The notes beneath the pieces are model-generated. The model saw only the letters and a program-made list of their open reading frames with translations. It was not told where the DNA came from and ran no database searches. Below are positions 26,814 to 41,622 of a stretch of DNA of 41,622 nucleotides, one piece after another. The DNA is from Deltaproteobacteria bacterium. GTDB lineage: Bacteria; JAMCPX01. The translations under genes and the position numbers were made by a program. How positions within the stretch are numbered: position 1 is the stretch's first letter; the number at the start of each line of letters is the position of its first letter. Location of the stretch: positions 1 through 41,622 of the forward strand of contig JAMCVD010000108.1 in NCBI GenBank assembly GCA_023381995.1, written 5' to 3'.

Positions 26814-28370
26814 CTAAAACGAAATGCAGGACGGATTGGCTGGATTGCACGGGGCCACCCGTATGGTGTGTGTGGATTGCGGTCCGCGCGTGTAGCTCAG
26901 GATGTCCGAAGAGGCATCGAAGCTCACGGCCCCGTCCGTGGCTGAGACCGTAAAGCCATCCGGGAAGTGCATCCGCGGCAGGAATATCTCCGTCGTACCA
27001 TGCCCGATACCATCCTCCCTGTAGGTATAGCTAAATGTCGTGGTAGTGAAGGATGCCGGGTCCGTTGTTATCGGATAGCTTATGCTGACAGGCGTTCCAG
27101 CGGTCAGCAATGGATACGGCCTTGAGAGCACATCGATGCCATAGAAAACAGGATTACCGTTCTGATCCACAAGTGACCTCGGTGTGCCGTCCGGGTAATA
27201 GGGACTCATATCAGGTCTGGTGGTATCATAAGGCCCGGCCTCGTAGTCGCCGTCGTACGACCACTCGATCCAGCCCGCTGCATAGGTGTCGAGATCGCCC
27301 AGCAGCGTAAGGAAGTAGTCCGCACTGCCCGGCGTGGTATAGTTCACGCCGAATTCTCCTATGAGCCACGGGACCCCCATTGCGATGCCGAGGGACCTGA
27401 GGGCATCGAGGCCCGCTACGATGGAGGACACATCCACAGGGTCTACGGGATAGAAATGGGGCTCGAACAGCAGGTTCGGGAACTGCCGGGGAAAGGTCGT
27501 CTGACTGATACCGGTCTCGAAGTCGCTGAATACGCTGCAGAGTGGATTGGTTGCCTCGAAGGCGATCACATGGTCGGGATCCACCGTCCTTATGCCCTCT
27601 ACCATCTTTTCATAGAACGGCACGAGCGCCTTCTGCTCGAATTCGGTAGTGAAGAGCGGGTAGAGGCCGGGGTATGGCTCGTTCATGATATCGTACCCGA
27701 GTACATTCGCTGTCGTGCCGAACCTCCGGGCGAGTGCCTGCAGTGCCGTGAGGTAGTGTTCCTGGAGCCCGGTGCCGTCCGGCCCGCTCCTGTCGTCCCA
27801 CAGGTCCTGGAACGACTGCCTCACCTGCGGGAGCGTATAGTTGAGCCCCCACAGCGCCACGTTCGCATTGCTGGTGTCTATAGTGCACTGGCTCACATCG
27901 TAGCCCGCAAGGTCGCACGCCCACGGGGGCGCACCGTCACCGTAGCAGAACGACTCGCTGAAGAGGTCCTGGTGCATATCGAGCAGCACCCACAGGCCGT
28001 TGTCTGCGCACATCTGCACCTCTTTTTGGAGCTGATCGAGGTAGCCTGTATCTATGGTGCCGGGCGTTGGCTCGAGCGCGGCCCAGAACACGAGCAGTCT
28101 CACGGCATCGAGCCCCAGGCCTTTCAATACGGAGAAATACTGGTCTGCCGCCTGATCGCTCATCGCCGTGGTGGTAAATGGCAGGTAGGGCGGATGCTTT
28201 GCGGTCTCGCTCACGTTGACGCCATGGACGATGATCACCCTGCCCTGTGTATCCCGCAGCCACGTACCGTCGGACCATACGGCGCCGTGGCTGCTGCTGG
28301 ACGTTTTGGAACCGGAACAGCCCGAAAAGAGCAACAGTACAGAGAGGAGTACGGGGTATGTATACTTCAT
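26814..28370 (-). CDS. GH5 endoglycoceramidase-like lipoprotein
   Basis: Clan GH-A hydrolase related to endoglycoceramidases and glucosylceramidases of GH5, which release glycans from glycosphingolipids or steryl glycosides. The start at 28370 gives the lipoprotein signal MKYTYPVLLSVLLLFSGCSG (lipobox FSGC). The core shows GRVIIVHGVNVSETAKHPPY, the family-typical LLDMHQDLFSE and GAPPWA, the acid/base Glu in DIMNEPYPG, HFYPVD, and the nucleophile Glu in LIGEFGVNY. The C-terminal beta-sandwich begins near SRPYPLLTAGTPV, as in endoglycoceramidase II. A start 12 nt upstream would overlap the GH1 gene. The start lies 1 bp after the GH1 stop, so the two are coupled. Exact substrate is uncertain. 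Confidence 0.85.
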   Translation of the reverse strand: MKYTYPVLLSVLLLFSGCSGSKTSSSSHGAVWSDGTWLRDTQGRVIIVHGVNVSETAKHPPYLPFTTTAMSDQAADQYFSVLKGLGLDAVRLLVFWAALEPTPGTIDTGYLDQLQKEVQMCADNGLWVLLDMHQDLFSESFCYGDGAPPWACDLAGYDVSQCTIDTSNANVALWGLNYTLPQVRQSFQDLWDDRSGPDGTGLQEHYLTALQALARRFGTTANVLGYDIMNEPYPGLYPLFTTEFEQKALVPFYEKMVEGIRTVDPDHVIAFEATNPLCSVFSDFETGISQTTFPRQFPNLLFEPHFYPVDPVDVSSIVAGLDALRSLGIAMGVPWLIGEFGVNYTTPGSADYFLTLLGDLDTYAAGWIEWSYDGDYEAGPYDTTRPDMSPYYPDGTPRSLVDQNGNPVFYGIDVLSRPYPLLTAGTPVSISYPITTDPASFTTTTFSYTYREDGIGHGTTEIFLPRMHFPDGFTVSATDGAVSFDASSDILSYTRGPQSTHTIRVAPCNPANPSCISF

Positions 28371-28371
28371 T

Positions 28372-29940
28372 TCAATGCCCATACTGGTCTATGATTGTGG
28401 GACTTATGCCGTCCGCAGCGGCTATTGCCGAATAGACGTCCGCGGCAGGGTGTATGGGGATCCTGGTAAAGTCGGTATCGACGGTCGGCTCCGTAAAGGT
28501 AGGGCTGGAAAAGTCGTCCACGTAGAACAGCGCATTGTTCTGCCTGTAGCCGGATGTCCATTCGTAGTCATAGTTCAGGGTCCAGTAGAGGTAGCCGAGG
28601 ATGTCCGCGCCCCGATCGATCGCATCGTGGACAGCCATGATGTTCTGTACGATGAACTTTGTCTTTTCAGCGGCCCCGCCATCGCTGAAATAGCCGTCTG
28701 TGCCGTTTTCAGTTACAAGAATTGGAAGATGATACCGCCTTGCATACTCGAGCAGTATGTCCGTAAATCCCTGTGTTTCGGAAGGGCCCTGTACAGGACA
28801 TTTGAATGATGAAAGTATACCGCTGAGAGCGGTATTGATCTGCGGATCGCACGGTAGTACGTCCACCGGGGACAGCACTCCGGGAACGGAGACCACGTAA
28901 TCGCTGATGTAGTAGTTCAGTCCGATAAAATCCAGCGTGTCTGCCCACTCCGGGTGTACCTCGGTGAAGGTCGTGCCCGTCAATCCATCGTCGAACACTC
29001 CCCTCGTGACCGCGTCCAGGAAAAGCAGATTATAAAAGTGATCGAAGCGGCTTGCCGCCGACTGAGACGAGGGGTTGTCCGGCACGGCGCTGGCAAACAC
29101 CGAATTCTTTGGGAAGCTTACCTCCGCGTCCGGGTCTTCGTCGTGTATCGCATGGTATGCGAGCGCATGCCCGGCGATCATGTTTTTTATCACGTCGACG
29201 ACGCTCGTACCGAACGGGAGGATCGCGGCAGTAAGATCGAGGTCCAGTGGGGCGTATGCCGGAGGGAAATCACCTATGATATAGCCCGAGAGCACATTGG
29301 CCATCGGCTCGTTCTCGGTGAGCCAGTATTTTACGGTGCCGGAAAACTGCTGTGCAATGAACCTCGCATAGCTCGAGAATGCGTACGCCGTAAGCGGGTT
29401 TGTCCAGCCGCCGAGAGAGCCGTCCGAGAATGTCTGTGTGGTAGGGTCGTAGACAGCTTCCGGGTTGTCGTCCCACAAAGGCAATGCATAGTGCAGCAGT
29501 GTAACGACCGGCGTCAGACCGTGGTCGATGAGTGACTGGACCACATCATGATAATGATTGACCACGGCCATATCGACATCGCCTGCAGTCAGGGGCATTC
29601 CGATCGTCTTCGGCGCACGGGGCTCGATCCTTGCCCATTCAAATGTAATCCTGAAGGCGTTGAGGTGCAGCGACTGTGCCTCCGCGCTATCCGTGTCGTA
29701 CAGGACGTACGAATTGTCCGCGAGTCCTATGTCCGGGACCTTGCCCATCTGCTCCCATGCATGATAGTCGTTGCCCGGGCAGTCGCCCTCTGCCTGTATC
29801 GATCCCTGGGACACACCCCACAAAAACCCTTTCGGGAAGCTCAGCGGGGCTGTTCTTTTGCTACTATTTGAGCATGATATTAGGGAAATTCCAAAACAGC
29901 CTATAACCGAAATTATTATAATATTTGTACATTTCCTCAT
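28372..29940 (-). CDS. GH1 beta-glycosidase, lipoprotein
   Basis: 522-residue retaining beta-glycosidase of family GH1. The signal MRKCTNIIIISVIGCFGISL ends in lipobox LISC, so it is predicted to be membrane-anchored outside the cytoplasm, unusual for GH1. Entry motif: FPKGFLWGVSQGSIQAEG. Acid/base Glu: LTENEPMANV (TxNEP type). Nucleophile Glu: PILVTENGTDGYF (TENG type). The C-terminal WTLNYDYEWTSGY stands in for the usual W-SL-DN-EW aglycone motif. It lies between a GH5 and an agarase-type gene on the same strand; a joint role in trimming external glycosides or glycolipids is inferred. Confidence 0.9.
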   Translation of the reverse strand: MRKCTNIIIISVIGCFGISLISCSNSSKRTAPLSFPKGFLWGVSQGSIQAEGDCPGNDYHAWEQMGKVPDIGLADNSYVLYDTDSAEAQSLHLNAFRITFEWARIEPRAPKTIGMPLTAGDVDMAVVNHYHDVVQSLIDHGLTPVVTLLHYALPLWDDNPEAVYDPTTQTFSDGSLGGWTNPLTAYAFSSYARFIAQQFSGTVKYWLTENEPMANVLSGYIIGDFPPAYAPLDLDLTAAILPFGTSVVDVIKNMIAGHALAYHAIHDEDPDAEVSFPKNSVFASAVPDNPSSQSAASRFDHFYNLLFLDAVTRGVFDDGLTGTTFTEVHPEWADTLDFIGLNYYISDYVVSVPGVLSPVDVLPCDPQINTALSGILSSFKCPVQGPSETQGFTDILLEYARRYHLPILVTENGTDGYFSDGGAAEKTKFIVQNIMAVHDAIDRGADILGYLYWTLNYDYEWTSGYRQNNALFYVDDFSSPTFTEPTVDTDFTRIPIHPAADVYSAIAAADGISPTIIDQYGH

Positions 29941-29978
29941 ATCGACTCTCGGTAAAAGGAACTCCGACCATTATGATC

Positions 29979-32309
29979 CTAATCTTTTACATTGTCCAGA
30001 TAAAAAACAATTCTCTGATCCCACGGTATGTCGCTTGCGTGTGCATCAATATAAAACACAGGAGTCACCTCGGTGAAGGCTGAACCTGAAACAGAAATTC
30101 CAACAGTTGACCAAGAATATGGTGGTAAGGATGACGGCAGGGGGCTGTCGTAAACTGTTGTGCCGTTGCCGAACAGTCTGATGTGCACAAAGTCCGTCGC
30201 ACTCCTGTATTGGCCCGATGGCGTATATACGACCTCAGGATACACATCAAAGGATAATGTATTCGTACCATCGAGGGGTATGGGCTGATTCATCCCCATG
30301 GTAACGATTGCACTCACAGGCAGCCCTGCCTGAAACGCGAGGCTGTTGAGCGTAAATGTAACCTTACCGGAGCCTGTACCTTGATCCCGTATAGCCTGTT
30401 CCGGCAAAACAAACCCGTCGCCAATCGCGTTGTCTGGATTGGGAAAGGTATCCGGGATATTGTTTACAAAACACCCGAGATTATCCATTGCCATACATGA
30501 TTGAATATCCGGAGCAGTGACGGTTACCGAAAAGCTTGCCGGCGTGATATAATCGCCTTGAATGCCGTTCAAACCGAGTGCCTTGACATCGAACCACCAT
30601 CTGCCCTGAGGGAGCTGATATGGGATCACAAAATTGTTTGTCGTAATATCGGTAAATGTGAGTGTAAACCTTTCTGGCATGCTTCTGTACGGAGAGAGTA
30701 TGACCGTATAACTGCCGGCACCGCTGACAGCCGTCCAGCTCAATGCTACTAATCCATTGTTGCCGCTCGTTGCTGTAATAAAATCAACAGGATTCAACAC
30801 AGAACCGTACGCCCCGGCAAGTGTTGACATGAGCGTCTTTGTCGCATCGGCAATATTGCTGAAGAATGTGGCATAAGGCTCGTCTTTTATGTTTACAAAT
30901 CCGTAGTTGCTGTTTTCTCCGTCAAACCTGCCTGTTGCAGGCTCATCCGACCATTCGAACCAGTGAAAGCCTGCAAGGAACGTCACCCCGCTTACCTTTA
31001 TACCGAGCAGTCTATTGACATCACTCTTGTAATAATCAGCCCGCTCATTCTGTGTCTTGACGGTCCAGCCCGCACCTCTTTCGTTTGGCAGACCGGAATC
31101 CTGTGCCCTAATGCCGAACTCAGATTGGATGAACGGCTTGCCATAAGTATTGTCCATCATGCTCAGTGTAAAAAACCGTGTCCATCTTTTTACTGGATCA
31201 CCCAATGTTGCGTTGGATATACTGTTATCGAGCGTGTAATAATCATTGACGCTTATCACATCGCAGTACTGCGATGCAGCCTCAATTACCTGATCCGGCG
31301 CATCCGACGCAAACCTCGCACACAGGTTCAGATGGTTCGGATCAACGGATTTGATGGCAGCGTTTGTAACAGAAAAATAGGTTGATGCTATATCATAGAT
31401 AAATGCCTGCTTGTCTGTCTGTATCTGTGGATATTGTGTGCTGTTTGCAAGCTTTGTCGCGTTCAGGACATCCGTCCAGTTCGCGAATGTCGTACCATAG
31501 AGCTGATTAAGTCTGTCAAGCGTATAACCTAATTTTTGTCGTAGAAAAACGTTTACCCAGTACTGCTTGCCCGCGTACGTAGGCGGTAGAGCGATGAAGT
31601 CATCCGCCAGCGTATAGGCAGGATTGTACAAAAACTGGGCGCCTCCAAACCAGTTTATCTCGTTGTCCGTAAAATAGCCTATGAGCCACGGGTCCTGCAC
31701 GAGCCCGGGTGTGATCGTCTGTCTGGCATACGCAATGGCATTCTGGGAAAATCTTGGGTCATAGACATCCGGGAAGCTATTCCAATAGCCTTGGTTAACC
31801 ACGGGACAATCATGAGAGCTAAAACTGTCGGCAACGGCCCTGATAAAATCCATCGGGATTGTGTATGGTATCGCATCCTGAAAAACAGTGAGCCCGTTAT
31901 CCGCCCAATTGCCGAGCGTATTGAAGCCAAGCTCTTTATACCTGCTTATGGTCTCCTGGACCCATTGTACCATTGTATACTGTGAAGCGTATGATGGAAA
32001 TAGGGACAATAGATTATGATTATAGGGAGAAAACCCGAACAAAGGCGCATTCCCAGCACCGCCAAAGCCCACTCCATCTGCACCGAGAGAGAGAAACGCA
32101 TGATTGTCAGGATCCACGAACACCCATCTTTTGTTTATAGTCTGTGTTCTGAAGAATCCAGAAGTGTTGTTCCCGGATATATTGCTCAAGCCGCCGTACT
32201 TGTCGAATTGAAGAGGTAACGAGGCGGTACCCGGCTTGTTGCCGGAACAGCCGGCAAAGAACAACACAGGTAACAAGGTAAACAAGATTATTGATCTTGA
32301 AAAACCTAT
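29979..32309 (-). CDS. Agarase-type (GH42/GH50-like) clan-A glycoside hydrolase lipoprotein
   Basis: About 775 residues. The catalytic part (about 25-500) shows NKRWVFVDPDNHAFLSLGAD, GFNTLGNWADNGL, the acid/base Glu in LIGYFTDNEINW, and a probable nucleophile Glu in FIQSEFGIR. These resemble beta-agarase/GH50 and GH42 enzymes; the substrate is not readable. A fibronectin-III-like module (about 505-600) and a C-terminal carbohydrate-binding-like beta domain follow. The N-terminus is a lipoprotein signal ending FFAGCSG. The only standard start is TTG at 32285, which has no ribosome-binding site. The strong AAAAGGAGG at 32314-32322 sits 4 nt before an in-frame ATA at 32307-32309, which would give an ideal signal peptide, so that ATA is used here. 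Confidence 0.8.
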   Translation of the reverse strand: MGFSRSIILFTLLPVLFFAGCSGNKPGTASLPLQFDKYGGLSNISGNNTSGFFRTQTINKRWVFVDPDNHAFLSLGADGVGFGGAGNAPLFGFSPYNHNLLSLFPSYASQYTMVQWVQETISRYKELGFNTLGNWADNGLTVFQDAIPYTIPMDFIRAVADSFSSHDCPVVNQGYWNSFPDVYDPRFSQNAIAYARQTITPGLVQDPWLIGYFTDNEINWFGGAQFLYNPAYTLADDFIALPPTYAGKQYWVNVFLRQKLGYTLDRLNQLYGTTFANWTDVLNATKLANSTQYPQIQTDKQAFIYDIASTYFSVTNAAIKSVDPNHLNLCARFASDAPDQVIEAASQYCDVISVNDYYTLDNSISNATLGDPVKRWTRFFTLSMMDNTYGKPFIQSEFGIRAQDSGLPNERGAGWTVKTQNERADYYKSDVNRLLGIKVSGVTFLAGFHWFEWSDEPATGRFDGENSNYGFVNIKDEPYATFFSNIADATKTLMSTLAGAYGSVLNPVDFITATSGNNGLVALSWTAVSGAGSYTVILSPYRSMPERFTLTFTDITTNNFVIPYQLPQGRWWFDVKALGLNGIQGDYITPASFSVTVTAPDIQSCMAMDNLGCFVNNIPDTFPNPDNAIGDGFVLPEQAIRDQGTGSGKVTFTLNSLAFQAGLPVSAIVTMGMNQPIPLDGTNTLSFDVYPEVVYTPSGQYRSATDFVHIRLFGNGTTVYDSPLPSSLPPYSWSTVGISVSGSAFTEVTPVFYIDAHASDIPWDQRIVFYLDNVKD

Positions 32310-35096: not shown

Positions 35097-36026
35097 ATGG
35101 ATGAGAAGCCAAGGGTAGTCATTATAGCCGGGCCCACCGCTGCCGGGAAGACGACATGCAGCATAGAGCTTGCCCTGTCTTTCCATGGAGAGGTCGTTAA
35201 CTGTGATTCCAGGCAGGTGTATGAATATATGGATATAGGCACCGCCAAGCCCGATCCTTTGCAATTGCATACCGTACAGCATCATATGATAGATATCGTC
35301 GAGCCGTCCGTACGCTTTAATGCGGCGAGATATGTGGACATGGCGGATAAGTGCATCGATGCCATAGGCGGGGCTGGACACGTCCCGTTTATTGTCGGCG
35401 GGACAGGGCTCTACATAAAGGCCCTGATGTACGGCCTCGCACCGGTCCCTCCTATAGACGGTGCCGTGAGAAACGACATACGGGAGCAGCACAGGCTGTA
35501 CGGCAACGAGGCATTGTATGAGAGGCTCAAGCGGATCGATCCTGAGGACGCGTCCCGCATAAGGGCAACAGACAGCTACAGGATTATAAGGGCGCTCGAG
35601 GTATTCACTGCCACGGGCAATCCTCTGCATACGTATGTTGCACGGCATGGGTTCTCGCAGAAAAGGTACAGATATGTATATATCGTCCTTTATAATCCCG
35701 ATAGGCGTCGATACCATGCCGCTATAGACAGACGTACCGAAAGCATGATTGAAAAGGGGCTGATAGATGAGGTTAAGTGGTTGATCGATAAGGGATATGG
35801 TGCGGATCTCCCGGCGATGAAGACCGTAGGCTATGCGGAGACCATTGATTATCTCGATAAGAAGACAGACCTTAATACCACGGTGAATCTCATCAAGAGA
35901 CACACGAAGGCCTACGCTAAAAGACAGCTCACCTGGTTTAAAGGCATAAAAGATGCATTATGGATAGATATGCAGGACGGGAAAGAAAGATTGAATGAGC
36001 TTATAAAGAGGGCGATATATGCCTAA
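35097..36026 (+). CDS. miaA: tRNA dimethylallyltransferase
   Basis: Transfers an isoprenyl group to N6 of A37 in tRNAs reading UNN codons. The P-loop is IIAGPTAAGKTT (residues 7-18). Further signatures are VVNCDSRQVYEYMDIGTAKP, VGGTGLYIKAL (about 101) and the C-terminal RHTKAYAKRQLTWFKG. 309 residues is a normal length. Its last 8 bp overlap the nifA-like gene, so the two may be translationally coupled. Confidence 0.97.
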   Translation: MDEKPRVVIIAGPTAAGKTTCSIELALSFHGEVVNCDSRQVYEYMDIGTAKPDPLQLHTVQHHMIDIVEPSVRFNAARYVDMADKCIDAIGGAGHVPFIVGGTGLYIKALMYGLAPVPPIDGAVRNDIREQHRLYGNEALYERLKRIDPEDASRIRATDSYRIIRALEVFTATGNPLHTYVARHGFSQKRYRYVYIVLYNPDRRRYHAAIDRRTESMIEKGLIDEVKWLIDKGYGADLPAMKTVGYAETIDYLDKKTDLNTTVNLIKRHTKAYAKRQLTWFKGIKDALWIDMQDGKERLNELIKRAIYA

Positions 36027-37417
36027 GACGGCCACCGGGTTTATAAAACAGTTGAACAATAAGAAGAAGCAGCTTACGGTGCTCTACGAGGTAAGCAAGC
36101 AGCTTGCGTCCACGATAGATTTCAGTGCGTCCATACATTCAAGCCTGAAGCTGATTGCGACGTACCTCGACATCCAGAGGATAGCCCTGTTCGTGTTCGA
36201 GCCCGAGACGGAAGAGTTTGTCATACACTACGCCTACGGCTTTACGCAGGAAGAGAGGGAGAAAGGCAGATACAGACTGGGCGAAGGGATAACGGGCAAG
36301 GTGGGGAAGAGCGGGGTGCCCATCGTGCTACCCGATGTGAAGGACGAGCCGATGTTCATGAACAAGACGGGCAAGGCGCTCAGGAAGGACAATCTGTCGT
36401 ACATTGCGGTGCCCGTGAAGATGGACAGGAAGGTCGTGGGTGTCCTGAGCGTACAGAGGCCGCTTACGGACGACAGCTCTTTCGAAGAGGACGTGAACCT
36501 CCTGTCCATGACGGCAGCGCTCATAGGCCAGGCCATGAGCCTGAACAGCGTCATAGAGAAGCAGCGCGCGGACATGGAGCACGAGATGGCCGGGCTGCGA
36601 AAGGAAGATGAACTGCGCAGCGCTGCCGGACACGCTGCTCGAGAGCGAGCTGTTCGGTCACGAAAAGGGCGCTTTTACCGGGGCATTCGAGACGAAGAAG
36701 GGTAGGTTCGAGCTTGCCAACGAGGGCACGATCTTCCTCGACGAGATAGGCGAGATAAGCCCCTCCACGCAGACGAAGCTCCTCAGGGTCATCCAGGAGA
36801 AGCGCTTTGAAAGACTTGGCGGGACAAAGACGATAGAGTCCGATGTGAGGATTATAGCCGCTACCAACAGCGACCTCGAGAAAGGGATAAAGGAAAGAAG
36901 GTTCAGGGAAGACCTGTACTACAGGTTGAACGTCGTGCCCATCTTTATGCCGCCCCTGCGCGGACGTAAAGAGGACATCCCTCTGCTCGTCGAGCATTTC
37001 CTGAGAAGGTTCAACAAGGAGCACAACAAGTCTCTTGTACTGTCCGAGCGCGCGATGGAATTTATAATAAACTATAATTGGCCGGGCAATGTCCGGGAGC
37101 TCGAGAACATGGTGGAGCGTGCGGTCATAATGACGAAGGGCAACATAATCGACATAAAGGACATTCCGCTGCCGGTCGTGAGCGGCGAGCCGGCAAAGGC
37201 AGACGACGTCGCATCGAAGCAGGCGATCTTCGAGCATTACAAGCTCGACTCCATTATCGAGGACATAGAGAAGAGCAGGATCATGGATGCGCTCAAGAAG
37301 ACCAGCGGCGTCAAGGCAAAGGCCGCACGGCTGCTCGGTATTACGCAGAGACAGCTTGGCTACAAGATACAGAAGTACAGGATCTCGATCGAGATAGATG
37401 CCACCGTCGACGCATAA
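36019..37417 (+). pseudogene. nifA: NifA-like sigma-54 activator with internal deletion
   Basis: Enhancer-binding activator of nitrogen genes. Frame 1 (36019-36705) encodes a GAF domain (about 20-175: LYEVSKQLASTIDFSASIH ... LGEGITGKVGKSGVPIV) and a coiled linker ending [11 protein letters not shown] different frame, from about 36608 to 37417, then begins abruptly inside the AAA+ domain at [17 protein letters not shown]. It has intact [31 protein letters not shown] and a Fis-type helix-turn-helix ([18 protein letters not shown]). The roughly 80-90 residues normally between these parts, including the Walker A motif GESGTGKE, are missing, and the junction also shifts frame. The GAF and DNA-binding ends are typical of NifA. 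Either a real inactivating deletion or an assembly collapse. Confidence 0.85.
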
Positions 37418-37437
37418 GACATGGACAGCGCATATGT

Positions 37438-37472
37438 GTTACAATTATGTTGCCGAAGTACATAATTGTAAC
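37438..37472. promoter_or_regulatory. Large inverted repeat upstream of glnA (operator/enhancer candidate)
   Basis: Perfect 13-bp arms, GTTACAATTATGT and ACATAATTGTAAC, flank a 9-nt spacer. The right arm contains a TACA-N4-TGTA palindrome (37459-37470) and the left arm a one-mismatch version (37440-37451). The same motif lies in front of both amtB genes. It is about 105 bp upstream of the sigma-54 promoter, a suitable distance for an enhancer. Confidence 0.6.
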
Positions 37473-37574
37473 CATAGTGCAACAAAAATGTGGCCTTTGT
37501 GATTCGGGCCCGGATCCTATTCCCGCATTTACAGATCGAGGAGCGACCGTGCAATTAGTTGTTGACATATAGTG

Positions 37575-37592
37575 TTGGCATGCTATTTGCTT
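37575..37592 (+). promoter_or_regulatory. Sigma-54 promoter of glnA
   Basis: TTGGCATG-CTAT-TTGCTT matches the -24/-12 consensus, with GG at 37577-37578 and GC at 37589-37590, the required 12-bp phasing. It predicts a start near 37601, 20 nt before the glnA ATG at 37623, which has AGGAGG at 37613-37618. Confidence 0.85.
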
Positions 37593-37622
37593 TTAAAACT
37601 TATATAAAAATTAGGAGGCAAT

Positions 37623-39035
37623 ATGACACCAAAAGACGTTTTGAAGTTTATCGAGGAGCAAAAGATAAGCTATATAGACCTGAAGTTCCTCGACTTCGTG
37701 GGGACATGGCAGCATTTCACGATACCCGTGCATGAATTGAAAGAGGATGTCTTTGAAGAAGGGCTCGGGTTCGACGGCAGCAGTATAAGGGGCTGGCAGC
37801 CGATACACGCAAGCGATATGCTCGTGATACCTGATGCAGCGACGGCGGTCATAGACCCTTTTATTCATGAACCCACCCTGAGCATCATCTGCAATATTCA
37901 GGACCCTATAACAAAGGAATACTATACGAGGGACCCGAGGAACATAGCGAGGAAGGCGGAAAATTATTTGAAATCGACGGGCATAGGCGATGTGGCATAT
38001 TTCGGCCCGGAGCTCGAGTTCTTTATATTCGATGACATCCGCTATGACCAGACCGTCAATGCCGGATACTACTATATTGATTCCGTGGAAGGGCAGTGGA
38101 ACACGGGCAGGATAGAGAACCCCAACCTCGGCTACAAGCCGCGCTACAAGGAGGGCTATTTCCCGGTGTCCCCGACCGATTCCCAGACCGACATCAGGAG
38201 CGAGATCGTAACGACGATGGAGAACATAGGACTCAGGATAGAGAAGCACCACCATGAGGTTGCGACCGGCGGGCAGGCAGAGATAGACATGGTCTTCGAC
38301 TCGCTGCTGGGCATGGGCGATAAGGTGATGTGGTATAAACATATCGTCAAGAATGTGGCCAAGAAGAACGGCAGGACTGCGACATTCATGCCCAAGCCAC
38401 TGTTCGGCGACAACGGCTCCGGCATGCACACGCACCAGAGCATATGGAAGGGGGGCAAGCCTTTGTTTGCGGGGAACGGCTACGGCGGCATGAGTGATCT
38501 TGCGATGCACTATATAGGGGGCATATTGAAGCATGCACCAGCAATCTGCGCCTTTACGAACCCCACCACGAACTCTTACAGAAGACTGGTCCCGGGCTTC
38601 GAGGCACCCGTAAACCTTGCCTACTCAAGCAGGAACAGGTCCGCGTCCATAAGGATCCCGATGTATTCCCCGAGCCCCAAGTCGAAGAGGATAGAGGTAA
38701 GGTTCCCGGATCCTGCGTCGAACAGCTATCTCGCGTTCTCGGCCATGCTCATGGCCGGACTCGACGGCATACAGAACAAGCTCAAGCCCGGCGACCCGCT
38801 CGATAAGGACATATACGGCCTTTCCCCGGAAGAGCTGAAGAACGTTCCAAGTACCCCCGGCAGCCTGGAAGAGGCGCTCAATGCGCTGAAAAAGGACCAC
38901 GAGTTCCTGCTGAAGGGCGATGTGTTCACATCCGATGTTATCGAGACATGGATCGAATACAAGACCAGGGCGGAGATCAACGCGGTCAAGCTAAGGCCGG
39001 TCCCGCTTGAGTTCAGTCTGTACTTCGACGCGTAA
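37623..39035 (+). CDS. glnA: Glutamine synthetase type I
   Basis: ATP-dependent amidation of glutamate, the main entry of ammonium into metabolism. 470 residues, GSI type. Visible hallmarks: [15 protein letters not shown] (about 48), the metal-site tract [23 protein letters not shown] (about 264), [11 protein letters not shown] and the R-x-E-x-R-x-PD tract ([14 protein letters not shown]). Tyr398 in [11 protein letters not shown] occupies the adenylylation loop, so GSI-beta type covalent control is likely. It is preceded by a sigma-54 promoter and a strong ribosome-binding site. Confidence 0.98.
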
Positions 39036-39086: not shown

Positions 39087-39806
39087 ATGAAGAAACCTAT
39101 CGCGGTCATACGACACATAGGCGTTGAAGGCCTTGGTACCATAGAGGATGTTTTAAAGCGGATCGGTCGTGCATACGGCTATATCGATACGTGGAAAGAC
39201 ACACTACCGCAGAAGGTGTCCGACTACAGTGCCATAATAGTCCTTGGAGGACCGATGGGTGTCTATGAGCGGGACAGGTACCCGTTTATTGAAAAGGAGC
39301 TCTCGCTCATCAGGAAAGCGCGGGACGGAGGGCTGCCCGTTATCGGAATATGCCTTGGTTCTCAAATGATAGCTCAGGCGATGGGTGGCAGGGTGTACAA
39401 GGGACGTACGAAGGAGATCGGCTGGTACGGCGTACGTCTTACGCAAGAGGCATCGGAGGACAGGCTTTTTGCAGAGATAGGTCCTGCCAGAGACGGGCCC
39501 GGTGCCGTTCGGGTGTTTCAATGGCATGGCGACACCTTCGACCTGCCGGATGATGCCGTGGTACTCGCAAGTTCGGAACTATATCAAAACCAGGCATTCA
39601 GGATAGACAATATCTATGGACTCCAGTTCCATATCGAGGTAAAAGAGGCTGATATCAGGAGCTGGGTCAATGAGTATAAATCGGAGCTGGATACTTTGCG
39701 ATCAAGCATAAATATCGGCAAGATACTCGACGATACAAAAATAAATATAGACCAATTAAACAAAATGAGCATACGGATATTCTCTGCATTCTTTTCCCTT
39801 CTGTAA
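39087..39806 (+). CDS. Class I glutamine amidotransferase (GMP synthase GATase-like)
   Basis: 239 residues. The nucleophile elbow is GICLGSQMIAQAMGG with Cys89. His and Glu of the triad are in GLQFHIEVKE, and VLGGPMGVYE is the typical oxyanion strand. This is a free-standing type 1 glutaminase domain with a roughly 50-residue helical tail. It would hydrolyse glutamine or a gamma-glutamyl compound; the partner or acceptor is unknown. Its location between glnA and amtB links it to nitrogen metabolism. No ribosome-binding site is apparent because a palindrome sits immediately upstream. Confidence 0.87.
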   Translation: MKKPIAVIRHIGVEGLGTIEDVLKRIGRAYGYIDTWKDTLPQKVSDYSAIIVLGGPMGVYERDRYPFIEKELSLIRKARDGGLPVIGICLGSQMIAQAMGGRVYKGRTKEIGWYGVRLTQEASEDRLFAEIGPARDGPGAVRVFQWHGDTFDLPDDAVVLASSELYQNQAFRIDNIYGLQFHIEVKEADIRSWVNEYKSELDTLRSSINIGKILDDTKINIDQLNKMSIRIFSAFFSLL

Positions 39807-39838
39807 TCAATCGTTTTTAGCCTTTAATGTTGTGTCCA

Positions 39839-39872
39839 TACAAATTTGTATACTTAAAGATACAAATTTGTA
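39839..39872. promoter_or_regulatory. Paired TACAAATTTGTA palindromes upstream of amtB1
   Basis: Two identical perfect 12-bp palindromes TACAAATTTGTA at 39839-39850 and 39861-39872, start-to-start spacing 22 bp (about two helical turns). The first extends to a 14-bp palindrome with flanking A and T. They lie 36-69 bp upstream of the -24 GG, where an activator or repressor dimer pair could bind on one face of the DNA. Confidence 0.7.
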
Positions 39873-39905
39873 ACACAAAATAGTCCCATACGGACATAAA
39901 GGGTA

Positions 39906-39922
39906 TTGGCATACAAAATGCT
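39906..39922 (+). promoter_or_regulatory. Sigma-54 promoter of amtB1
   Basis: TTGGCATA-CAAA-ATGCT, with GG at 39908-39909 and GC at 39920-39921 (12-bp phasing). Predicted start near 39932. The 16-bp core GGCATACAAAATGCTC recurs before the second amtB. Confidence 0.75.
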
Positions 39923-39924
39923 CG

Positions 39925-39936
39925 TACAATTTTGTA
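39925..39936. promoter_or_regulatory. Third TACA-N4-TGTA site at the amtB1 transcription start
   Basis: TACAATTTTGTA covers the predicted start point of the sigma-54 promoter, a position expected for repression. It also forms an 8-bp inverted repeat (TACAAAAT ... ATTTTGTA) with the promoter spacer. The matching place before amtB2 is degenerate (TACCATTTTGCT). Confidence 0.45.
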
Positions 39937-39962
39937 AGAGTTTATGGTTACAGGAGAATAAC

Positions 39963-41291
39963 ATGAGAAGGTTTTTGCCGTATACAGTCTTGTCGTTTGT
40001 TTCCCTATCTTTTGTTTCACTGATGGCGCCTGTGGCGGCATGGGCGCATACCGCCGACTCGGTCCAGAAGATCAATACCGGGGATACCGCATTCGTGCTC
40101 GTCGCGACGGCGCTCGTCATGCTGATGACGCCGGGGCTCGCGCTGTTTTACGGCGGTATGGTACGGAAAAAGAACGTCCTCTCCACCATCATGCAGAGCT
40201 TTATACTCCTTGCGGTCATAAGTATCCAATGGGTGCTGTGGGGGTACAGCCTCTCGTTCGGTCCGGACATCCACGGTATCATAGGGAGCCTGAGATGGTT
40301 CGGGCTGAACCACGTCGGTTTCGCACCCAACCCGGACTATGCGCCCACGATACCCCACCAGGCATTTATGATATTCCAGATGATGTTTGCGGTAATAACG
40401 CCGGGGCTCATAACCGGGGCGTTCGCCGAAAGAATGAAGTTCAGCACGTTCCTGTTGTTTACGGTCCTGTGGGCGACGCTCGTGTACGATCCCATAACCC
40501 ATTGGGTATGGGGGGCCGGGGGCTGGCTGAAATCCATGGGTGTTCTCGATTTTGCAGGGGGACTGGTCGTACACCTTAGCTCGGGTGTGTCCGCATTGGC
40601 GGCGGTACTTATCATCGGCAAAAGGCACAACTATGGCAAGGAGCCGTACATGCCGCATAATCTCACGATGACCCTTCTTGGAACGGCGCTGCTGTGGTTC
40701 GGCTGGTTCGGATTCAATGCCGGCAGCGCACTGTCAGCGGGCCCGCTTGCGGTGTCCGCATTTGTTGTGACGAATATAGCGGGTGCTGCGGGGACCCTGG
40801 GCTGGGTCGTTTTTGAATGGATGAAGAACGGAAGGCCGACCATGCTTGGCGCGGCGAGCGGTGCCATAGCGGGCCTTGCGACCATTACGCCGGCATCCGG
40901 GTTTGTTACGCCCGTGGCCGCCATCATAATCGGGTTCGGCGCAGGCACGTTCTGCTACTATGCGGTGGCCCTCAAATTCAAGCTCGGATACGATGATGCG
41001 CTGGACGTCGTGGGTGTCCATGGCGCGGGCGGTGTGCTCGGCGTACTGGCGACGGGACTGTTTGCGAGTCTGGCGTTGAACCCAAACGGTGCGAACGGAC
41101 TGTTCTATGGCAATGCGAAGTTTTTCCTCCTCCAGCTCCTCGCTGTTTCGGTCGTGATAGTTTACTGCTTCGTCCTGACGGTGGTAATTCTGAAAGTGCT
41201 TGAGAGGGTAATGACGTTAAGGGTATCGCATGAGGACGAGATATCGGGACTGGATATAACGCAGCACGGCGAAGAGGGATACAACATGTGA
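39963..41291 (+). CDS. amtB: Ammonium transporter AmtB, copy 1
   Basis: Trimeric inner-membrane ammonium channel. The start at 39963 has AGGAGA 5 nt upstream and gives a signal peptide (MRRFLPYTVLSFVSLSFVSL, cleavage near AWAHT) before eleven expected membrane segments; 442 residues. The twin pore histidines are H204 in VVHLSSGVSAL and H353 in VGVHGAGGVLG. LMTPGLALFYGGMVRKKN and DFAGGLVVH are family hallmarks. The C-terminal tail (about 25 residues, ending EEGYNM) would bind the PII protein GlnK. It is preceded by a sigma-54 promoter and paired palindromes. Confidence 0.97.
   Translation: MRRFLPYTVLSFVSLSFVSLMAPVAAWAHTADSVQKINTGDTAFVLVATALVMLMTPGLALFYGGMVRKKNVLSTIMQSFILLAVISIQWVLWGYSLSFGPDIHGIIGSLRWFGLNHVGFAPNPDYAPTIPHQAFMIFQMMFAVITPGLITGAFAERMKFSTFLLFTVLWATLVYDPITHWVWGAGGWLKSMGVLDFAGGLVVHLSSGVSALAAVLIIGKRHNYGKEPYMPHNLTMTLLGTALLWFGWFGFNAGSALSAGPLAVSAFVVTNIAGAAGTLGWVVFEWMKNGRPTMLGAASGAIAGLATITPASGFVTPVAAIIIGFGAGTFCYYAVALKFKLGYDDALDVVGVHGAGGVLGVLATGLFASLALNPNGANGLFYGNAKFFLLQLLAVSVVIVYCFVLTVVILKVLERVMTLRVSHEDEISGLDITQHGEEGYNM
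40083..40162 (+). repeat. 80-bp segment identical to the end of the window
   Basis: Base-for-base identical to 41543-41622. It encodes the first membrane region of AmtB (DTAFVLVATALVMLMTPGLA onward). Identity begins one base after a G/C difference and continues to the last base of the window. Confidence 0.9.
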
Positions 41292-41324
41292 CCATTTCTT
41301 CTCTGTTCTATTCTGTTATACTTC

Positions 41325-41358
41325 TACAAACTTGTAGACGTAATGATACACAATTGTA
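41325..41358. promoter_or_regulatory. Paired TACA-N4-TGTA palindromes upstream of amtB2
   Basis: TACAAACTTGTA (41325-41336) and TACACAATTGTA (41347-41358), start-to-start spacing 22 bp, the same as before amtB1. The outer TACA and TGTA half-sites are invariant while the central four bases vary, which suggests selection on the half-sites. Confidence 0.7.
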
Positions 41359-41378
41359 GCATACCAGCGTAAAAGGCG

Positions 41379-41395
41379 GTGGCATACAAAATGCT
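41379..41395 (+). promoter_or_regulatory. Sigma-54 promoter of amtB2
   Basis: GTGGCATA-CAAA-ATGCT, with GG at 41381-41382 and GC at 41393-41394 (12-bp phasing). It lies 54 nt before the amtB2 ATG, compared with 55 nt in amtB1. Confidence 0.72.
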
Positions 41396-41434
41396 CTTAC
41401 CATTTTGCTATAAACCGTATTCACAGGAGAGAAC

Positions 41435-41622
41435 ATGAAGAGACTTTTGTCCAACACACTTGTATTTTTTATCACGCTGCTCGTGCCTGTCGTGGCATGT
41501 GCGGATGTGGTGGGTAGTACTGCGCACAAGATTAGCTCGGGCGATACCGCATTCGTGCTCGTCGCGACGGCGCTCGTCATGCTGATGACGCCGGGGCTCG
41601 CGCTGTTTTACGGCGGTATGGT
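41435..41622 (+). CDS. amtB: Ammonium transporter AmtB, copy 2 (3' partial)
   Basis: Second ammonium transporter gene, cut by the window end after about 62 codons. ATG at 41435 with AGGAGA upstream. The signal peptide MKRLLSNTLVFFITLLVPVV (cleavage near ACAD) differs from copy 1, but from the GDTAF motif onward the protein is identical and the DNA is identical over the last 80 bp. The upstream region is also a diverged copy of that of amtB1. A glnK/PII gene may follow outside the window. Confidence 0.9.
   Translation, partial: MKRLLSNTLVFFITLLVPVVACADVVGSTAHKISSGDTAFVLVATALVMLMTPGLALFYGGM
41543..41622 (+). repeat. 80-bp segment identical to amtB1 interior
   Basis: Second copy of 40083-40162, running to the last base of the window. 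The sequence ends inside an exact repeat, as expected where an assembler stops at an unresolved duplicate. Confidence 0.9.

Follow-up and report, generated by a model that had tools for sequence, protein, structure and literature searches.

Paired palindromes at the sigma-54 promoters of amtB and glnA are probable operators of a NifA-family activator

The closest described operators belong to the regulators of alternative nitrogenases. AnfA of Rhodobacter capsulatus binds two TAC-N6-GTA sites before a sigma-54 promoter (PMC7294313), and the sites of VnfA, GT(T/A)C-N6-GTAC, mostly occur in two copies (PMC9542535). AnfA is inhibited by PII, apparently via its GAF domain (PMC12093980), and for some Desulfovibrio activators TGT/ACA half-sites 9, 11 or 12 bp apart have been inferred (PMC4641369). 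The stretch of DNA that we analyzed, 41.6 kb in its entirety and referred to here as the window, carries palindromes of this general type before genes of ammonium assimilation (Table 1).

A pattern search of the window finds a TACA-N4-TGTA pair before each of two amtB genes, with the two sites 22 bp apart start to start and with the centers AATT and AATT at amtB1 and AACT and CAAT at amtB2. An earlier note on this DNA had described these pairs and placed them before the sigma-54 promoters of both genes, and its coordinates and centers are exact. Both promoters show the GG-N10-GC spacing in a TGGCA/TGC context, and the genome contains an rpoN gene. The offsets of the pairs from the -24 GG differ (GG-69/-47 at amtB1, GG-56/-34 at amtB2), and the spacer sequences are unlike. 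The note had also reported a third site at the amtB1 start that is degenerate in amtB2; this holds, as the amtB1 copy is exact and its amtB2 counterpart matches at 5/8 positions. Its failure to see NtrC or NifA sites by eye is borne out by search, which finds neither TGT-N10-ACA nor the NtrC palindrome (TGCAC..GTGCA or GCACC-N5-GGTGC) in nine amtB promoters, the window's two and seven related ones. Near their 5' ends amtB1 and amtB2 have a long identical stretch (40083-40162 and 41543-41622), and the contig stops inside it.

Exact TACA-N4-TGTA sites number seven in the window against 0.3 expected, a count reached in 0 of 100 shuffles; the seventh (35667-35678) falls within the miaA frame. The pair pattern occurs genome-wide (2.1 Mb) only at the two amtB places, and the reversed control gives 0. 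The paired palindromes before the amtB genes are real and far above chance. Single exact sites show no enrichment genome-wide (25, versus 23 for the control), and we therefore claim no wider regulon for this genome; eight other single sites that we examined in it all fall inside open frames or at their margins.

Additionally, the gap before glnA (37418-37622) contains three ACA-N4-TGT sites, starting at 37440, 37459 and 37481 with spacings of 19 and 22 bp, which the earlier note had missed. Between miaA and glnA, a gene at 36019-37417 encodes an activator of GAF-AAA+-Fis architecture. With this gene directly 5' of glnA and with the glnA sites, operator, regulator and three targets come to lie within 5.5 kb. 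Elsewhere in the window (26814-32285), three large lipoprotein-like frames of 522, 522 and 768 aa follow one another on the minus strand, and the openings of the first two resemble glycoside hydrolases.

Table 1 Predicted operator sites, promoters and genes of the window, and stand-alone HTH loci of Nitrospirota.
Feature	Sequence	Position	Strand	Remarks
NifA-like activator, GAF part		36019..36705	+	PF01590; frame break near 36605
NifA-like activator, AAA+ remainder without Walker A, and Fis-type HTH		36608..37417	+	PF00158 from profile position 56, HTH_8
glnA operator site 1 (predicted)	TACAATTATGTT	37440..37451	.	7/8 match; 19 bp to site 2
glnA operator site 2 (predicted)	TACATAATTGTA	37459..37470	.	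exact TACA-N4-TGTA
glnA operator site 3 (predicted)	AACAAAAATGTG	37481..37492	.	core ACA-N4-TGT; 22 bp past site 2
glnA sigma-54 promoter	TGGCATGCTATTTGCT	37576..37591	+	motif match
glnA, type I glutamine synthetase		37623..39035	+	TIGR00653, 680 bits
Class I glutamine amidotransferase, glnA-amtB1 interval		39087..39806	+	PF00117
amtB1 operator site 1 (predicted)	TACAAATTTGTA	39839..39850	.	exact match; start 69 bp 5' of -24 GG
amtB1 operator site 2 (predicted)	TACAAATTTGTA	39861..39872	.	exact; 22 bp past site 1
amtB1 sigma-54 promoter	TGGCATACAAAATGCT	39907..39922	+	motif match; sigma-54 gene in genome
Third operator site (predicted), inferred amtB1 start point	TACAATTTTGTA	39925..39936	.	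exact match
amtB1, ammonium transporter		39963..41291	+	PF00909, TIGR00836
amtB2 operator site 1 (predicted)	TACAAACTTGTA	41325..41336	.	exact; start at GG-56
amtB2 operator site 2 (predicted)	TACACAATTGTA	41347..41358	.	exact; GG-34, 22 bp past site 1
amtB2 sigma-54 promoter	TGGCATACAAAATGCT	41380..41395	+	motif match; element identical to that of amtB1
amtB2, 5' part; extends past contig end		41435..41622	+	remainder probably on G000:C18
Stand-alone HTH loci (Nitrospirota)	consensus AARKLGITERMIGYKIKKYGI	L031:8631, L045:6894, L046:8925, L050:1735, L066:9006, L087:8891, L104:7811 and twelve more

The candidate phylum of the window is small, and our scans within it cover nine genomes of one family, so that the comparison depends mainly on Nitrospirota. 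In six genomes of the phylum, seven amtB promoters have the sites at GG-56 and GG-34, with two promoters one base off; at amtB1 of the window and in G008a, both sites lie ~13 bp farther upstream with a spacing that is still 21-22 bp (21 in G008). When sister amtB promoters are aligned on the sigma-54 element and identity is scored between promoter pairs, the half-site cores reach 98%, against 74% for the centers, 45% for the 10-bp spacer and 39% for the stretch from site 2 to the -24 element, in agreement with the earlier proposal that conservation is on the half-sites. Across 31 family sites the ACA/TGT core is nearly invariant, and the outer letter is mostly T or G. The third site (GG+17/18) matches at no fewer than 7/8 positions in 4 of the 9 promoters versus 0 of 1431 background positions; G003 and G005 have an exact copy, like the window, and G002 has one that matches at 7/8. 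This supports the start-point site as a genuine conserved element, and it may act in repression, as the note had suggested. Before glnA, G006 and G009 have triple sites at 19 + 22 bp and G007 has them at 23/19 (contig orientation), in all three within the activator-glnA gap. The gene order miaA - activator - glnA - amtB is kept in L026 and L028. The class I glutamine amidotransferase gene of the glnA-amtB1 interval is present there in L028 and missing in L026.

The same palindrome recurs outside the phylum. Among 80 amtB loci of named genomes there are 66 intergenic and 8 genic matches, with 1-10 intergenic matches for each of eleven composition-matched control palindromes, and almost all of the matches lie in Nitrospirota amtB-glnK clusters. 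Pairs in these clusters are mostly 17-19 bp apart, and the sites mostly start 57-59, 65-68 or 74-77 bp before the GG. At least two sites occur at 33 sigma-54 promoters, versus at most 10 for the best unrelated control half-site, and the three outer-letter variants do about equally well (27, 22 and 22 loci), as would be expected if ACA-N4-TGT is the core. A scan of relatives for pairs near sigma-54 promoters, as the earlier note had recommended, thus supports a conserved nitrogen operator. The note's argument that the spacing places two dimers on the same DNA face does not generalize: 22 bp is about two turns, but relatives use 17, 18, 19 and 20 bp, so that no single helical face is needed.

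Look-alike pairs with other outer letters or spacings were assigned to other activators and kept out of this claim. Near locus position 1501, L172, L174 and L175 (G058, G080 and G067) have pairs of GACA-N4-TGTC with a spacing of 19 bp, and a sigma-54-like element follows ~110-165 bp farther on; this is an operator of like shape, possibly that of a PEP-CTERM-type response regulator. At about the same locus position (1501), L168-L171 (G074, G039, G043 and G040) have TACA-N4-TGTC-N8-GACA-N4-TGTA, which includes TGT-N10-ACA; the gene of another sigma-54 activator lies directly 5' of it, and a sigma-54-like element follows beyond.

Judging from sequence comparison, the palindromes are probably operators of the NifA-family activator (GAF-AAA+-Fis) whose gene is flanked by miaA and glnA. 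Intact orthologs (L026, L028, L034, L045 and L058) pass TIGR01817 (nifA) with 554-593 bits against a cut-off of 528.85, and orthologs, where present, number one per genome, at 773-969 bits, with the next activator at ~440. The window's own copy is broken: relative to the gene of L026, which encodes 529 aa, 191 bp are missing at 36605, the frame is shifted and the Walker A segment is gone. Neither the missing piece nor an intact copy was found elsewhere in the assembly (genome 84% complete). Seven sister genomes, G001-G006 and G008, have open frames of 533-541 aa with the same HTH, and the frame in G007 is only 242 aa. The gap may be an assembly error (collapse), or it may be a true recent deletion that makes the gene a pseudogene; the conserved operators argue for a collapse or a very recent event.

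The activator and the motif tend to occur together. A full-length ortholog is present in 19 of the 23 genomes with the motif at amtB loci, with a fragment in a 20th, versus 11 of 50 other amtB genomes. A uniform, stricter promoter rule gives counts of 17/4/14/38 (Fisher p = 4.5e-5), an association that kinship inflates. Four motif-bearing Nitrospirota genomes have no recognizable ortholog. The deltaproteobacterial orthologs of G040, G056, G061, G063 and G066, genomes with no motif near amtB, have an unlike recognition helix (TERVISYSVKKF or TQRIINYKIDRY, otherwise TxRQxGYKxxKY). A search confined to nifH finds none over the cut-off in the 9 phylum genomes, the window's included; nifH is present in 9 of 43 genomes tested, each of which is a relative from another phylum. 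The earlier note had named NifA-like, NtrC, TetR and GntR proteins as candidates for binding assays. The NifA-like candidate stands, and since its gene is in the same window, TetR and GntR regulators are not needed.

We propose that each 12-bp palindrome (core ACA-N4-TGT) would bind one Fis-type HTH dimer, and that two or three dimers ~50-160 bp upstream of the start would lead to assembly of the AAA+ ring. Under a shortage of fixed nitrogen, the ring would then open the three sigma-54 promoters, those of amtB1, amtB2 and glnA. By analogy to NifA and AnfA, the GAF domain may sense nitrogen status, perhaps via PII, an input suggested by the inhibition of AnfA by PII (PMC12093980). The start-point site at amtB1 could limit expression when the activator is abundant. 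A site type of AnfA and VnfA, which are NifA paralogs, would here have been turned to use in ammonium assimilation, in a lineage that has no nifH.

In nineteen clusters of Nitrospirota, a small protein of ~55-75 aa consists of a Fis-type HTH that stands alone; its gene is mostly the first of the amtB operon, and in nearly all of the 19 sigma-54 promoters ahead of this gene the sites lie within 1-2 bases of GG-57 and GG-76. Among NCBIfam models, the protein fits the DNA-binding end of NifA best (~40 bits, versus at most 25 for others). Such a small repressor or architectural protein could itself occupy the sites, either closing the promoters or competing with the activator, a reading that gains from the small HTH being found in every motif-bearing Nitrospirota genome that has no NifA-like activator, from the sites before its own gene, from its NifA match and from the start-point site, which suits a repressor. 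As the explanation of the sites we nevertheless consider it unlikely, because the window's phylum has no such gene, the best matches there being the NifA-like activator's own HTH, because the protein alone cannot open a sigma-54 promoter, and because the sites are mostly at activator distances. It is possible that the stand-alone HTH is a natural antagonist of the NifA-like activator.

The window's genome encodes six other intact sigma-54 activators, five of response-regulator types and a receiver-less one (L007), and one of these might bind the sites instead. This is improbable, as none passes the ntrC model (best 434 versus 558.6), none is linked to the sites in the way that the NifA-like gene is, and their recognition helices differ from the 12-residue helix of the NifA-like activator.

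It could also be argued that the two inner half-sites, TGT-N12-ACA, form the true element as a stretched NifA box, and that the palindromes are incidental. The Desulfovibrio half-sites 9, 11 or 12 bp apart (PMC4641369) provide a precedent, and nifH promoters also speak for it: in nine Nitrospirota relatives (L199-L207) they contain two ACA-N4-TGT palindromes, some of them degenerate, 20 bp apart (19 in one), and TGT-N10-ACA therefore often arises between them, as the inner halves of a 20-bp pair are the classical box. However, classical nif promoters on plasmids (Rahnella, Rhizobium, Sinorhizobium and Bradyrhizobium) have TGT-N10-ACA boxes that lack the outer half-sites, the pair spacing varies (14, 17, 18, 19, 20 and 22 bp) while the palindrome is constant, and single palindromes also occur. 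The stretched box is hence quite improbable, and the nifH palindromes, together with the classical boxes that lack outer halves, make the 12-bp palindrome look like the binding unit of this lineage. It counts against the activator as the binder that the recognition helix of classical NifA is nearly identical to that of the activator, though its site is TGT-N10-ACA; our activator tree left out AnfA and VnfA and has classical NifA on long branches, with its placement unsure. Lastly, that the amtB promoters are copies whose sites arose by chance or duplication and were inherited without function is scarcely credible: amtB1 and amtB2 do have long identical stretches in common, but site offsets and spacers are unlike between their promoters, and glnA, the sister genomes and another phylum carry the sites.

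Literature searches with the exact 12-mers returned unrelated papers only, and searches for nitrogen regulation in Nitrospirota or for Fis-family genes with amtB returned nothing relevant. The earlier suggestion of an undescribed nitrogen operator is therefore upheld in part: we found no description of its use at amtB, glnK or glnA, but the dyad is that of the published AnfA site, and VnfA is close. Thus, this type of site has precedents among the regulators of alternative nitrogenases, and its use on ammonium-assimilation genes appears to be new. More speculatively, a NifA-family activator might have replaced NtrC as the general assimilation regulator in a nitrogenase-free phylum and in part of the Nitrospirota, with AnfA-type dyads at amtB, glnK and glnA, with one protein reading assimilation and fixation promoters by dimer spacing, and with the Nitrospirota HTH as a built-in antagonist; we put this forward as a tentative idea that may well prove wrong. 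Since the palindrome at 20-bp spacing gives the NifA box at nifH, one protein could read both promoter classes.

For Nitrospirota and a nearby uncultured phylum, in which we found no nitrogen operator described, these results offer an operator code of nitrogen control that can be tested. They suggest that ammonium assimilation can be under NifA-family activators where nitrogenase is lacking, a point relevant to whether NifA originated as a general nitrogen regulator. Furthermore, the nifH promoters of the relatives suggest a connection between the NifA box and the AnfA/VnfA dyad, as two dyads 20 bp apart contain TGT-N10-ACA.

Among known systems, NtrC of Proteobacteria resembles the predicted regulator in being a sigma-54 activator with paired enhancer sites before glnA and amtB (glnA and amtB-glnK promoters), but it has another binding site, the predicted regulator has no receiver domain, and the window's genome has no activator that fits the NtrC model. 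With NifA, the same regulator family is involved (TIGR01817 is passed) and TGT-N10-ACA occurs at nifH of the relatives; however, this upstream activating sequence is absent at the amtB promoters of the family, and the phylum genomes have no nifH. The operator of VnfA (Azotobacter vinelandii) likewise places two palindromes of similar GTA/TAC geometry ahead of sigma-54 promoters, with binding proposed to be cooperative (PMC9542535), but its outer G/C letters are unlike, and VnfA targets vanadium-nitrogenase genes. The AnfA operator is most similar: its TAC-N6-GTA dyad contains TACA-N4-TGTA, two sites precede a sigma-54 promoter (PMC7294313), and AnfA, itself a NifA paralog, has the GAF, AAA+ and Fis-type HTH domains that the predicted regulator also has. 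AnfA, however, controls the iron-only nitrogenase genes anfHDGK, whereas here the targets are amtB and glnA, there is no nifH, and a third site lies at the start point. The locus has the 12-bp TAC-N6-GTA dyad and the two sites 5' of a sigma-54 promoter that characterize AnfA and VnfA operators, and its targets are amtB and glnA in place of an alternative nitrogenase. The fit to the AnfA/VnfA dyad, rather than to NifA spacing, points to a putative AnfA-type operator that serves nitrogen assimilation.
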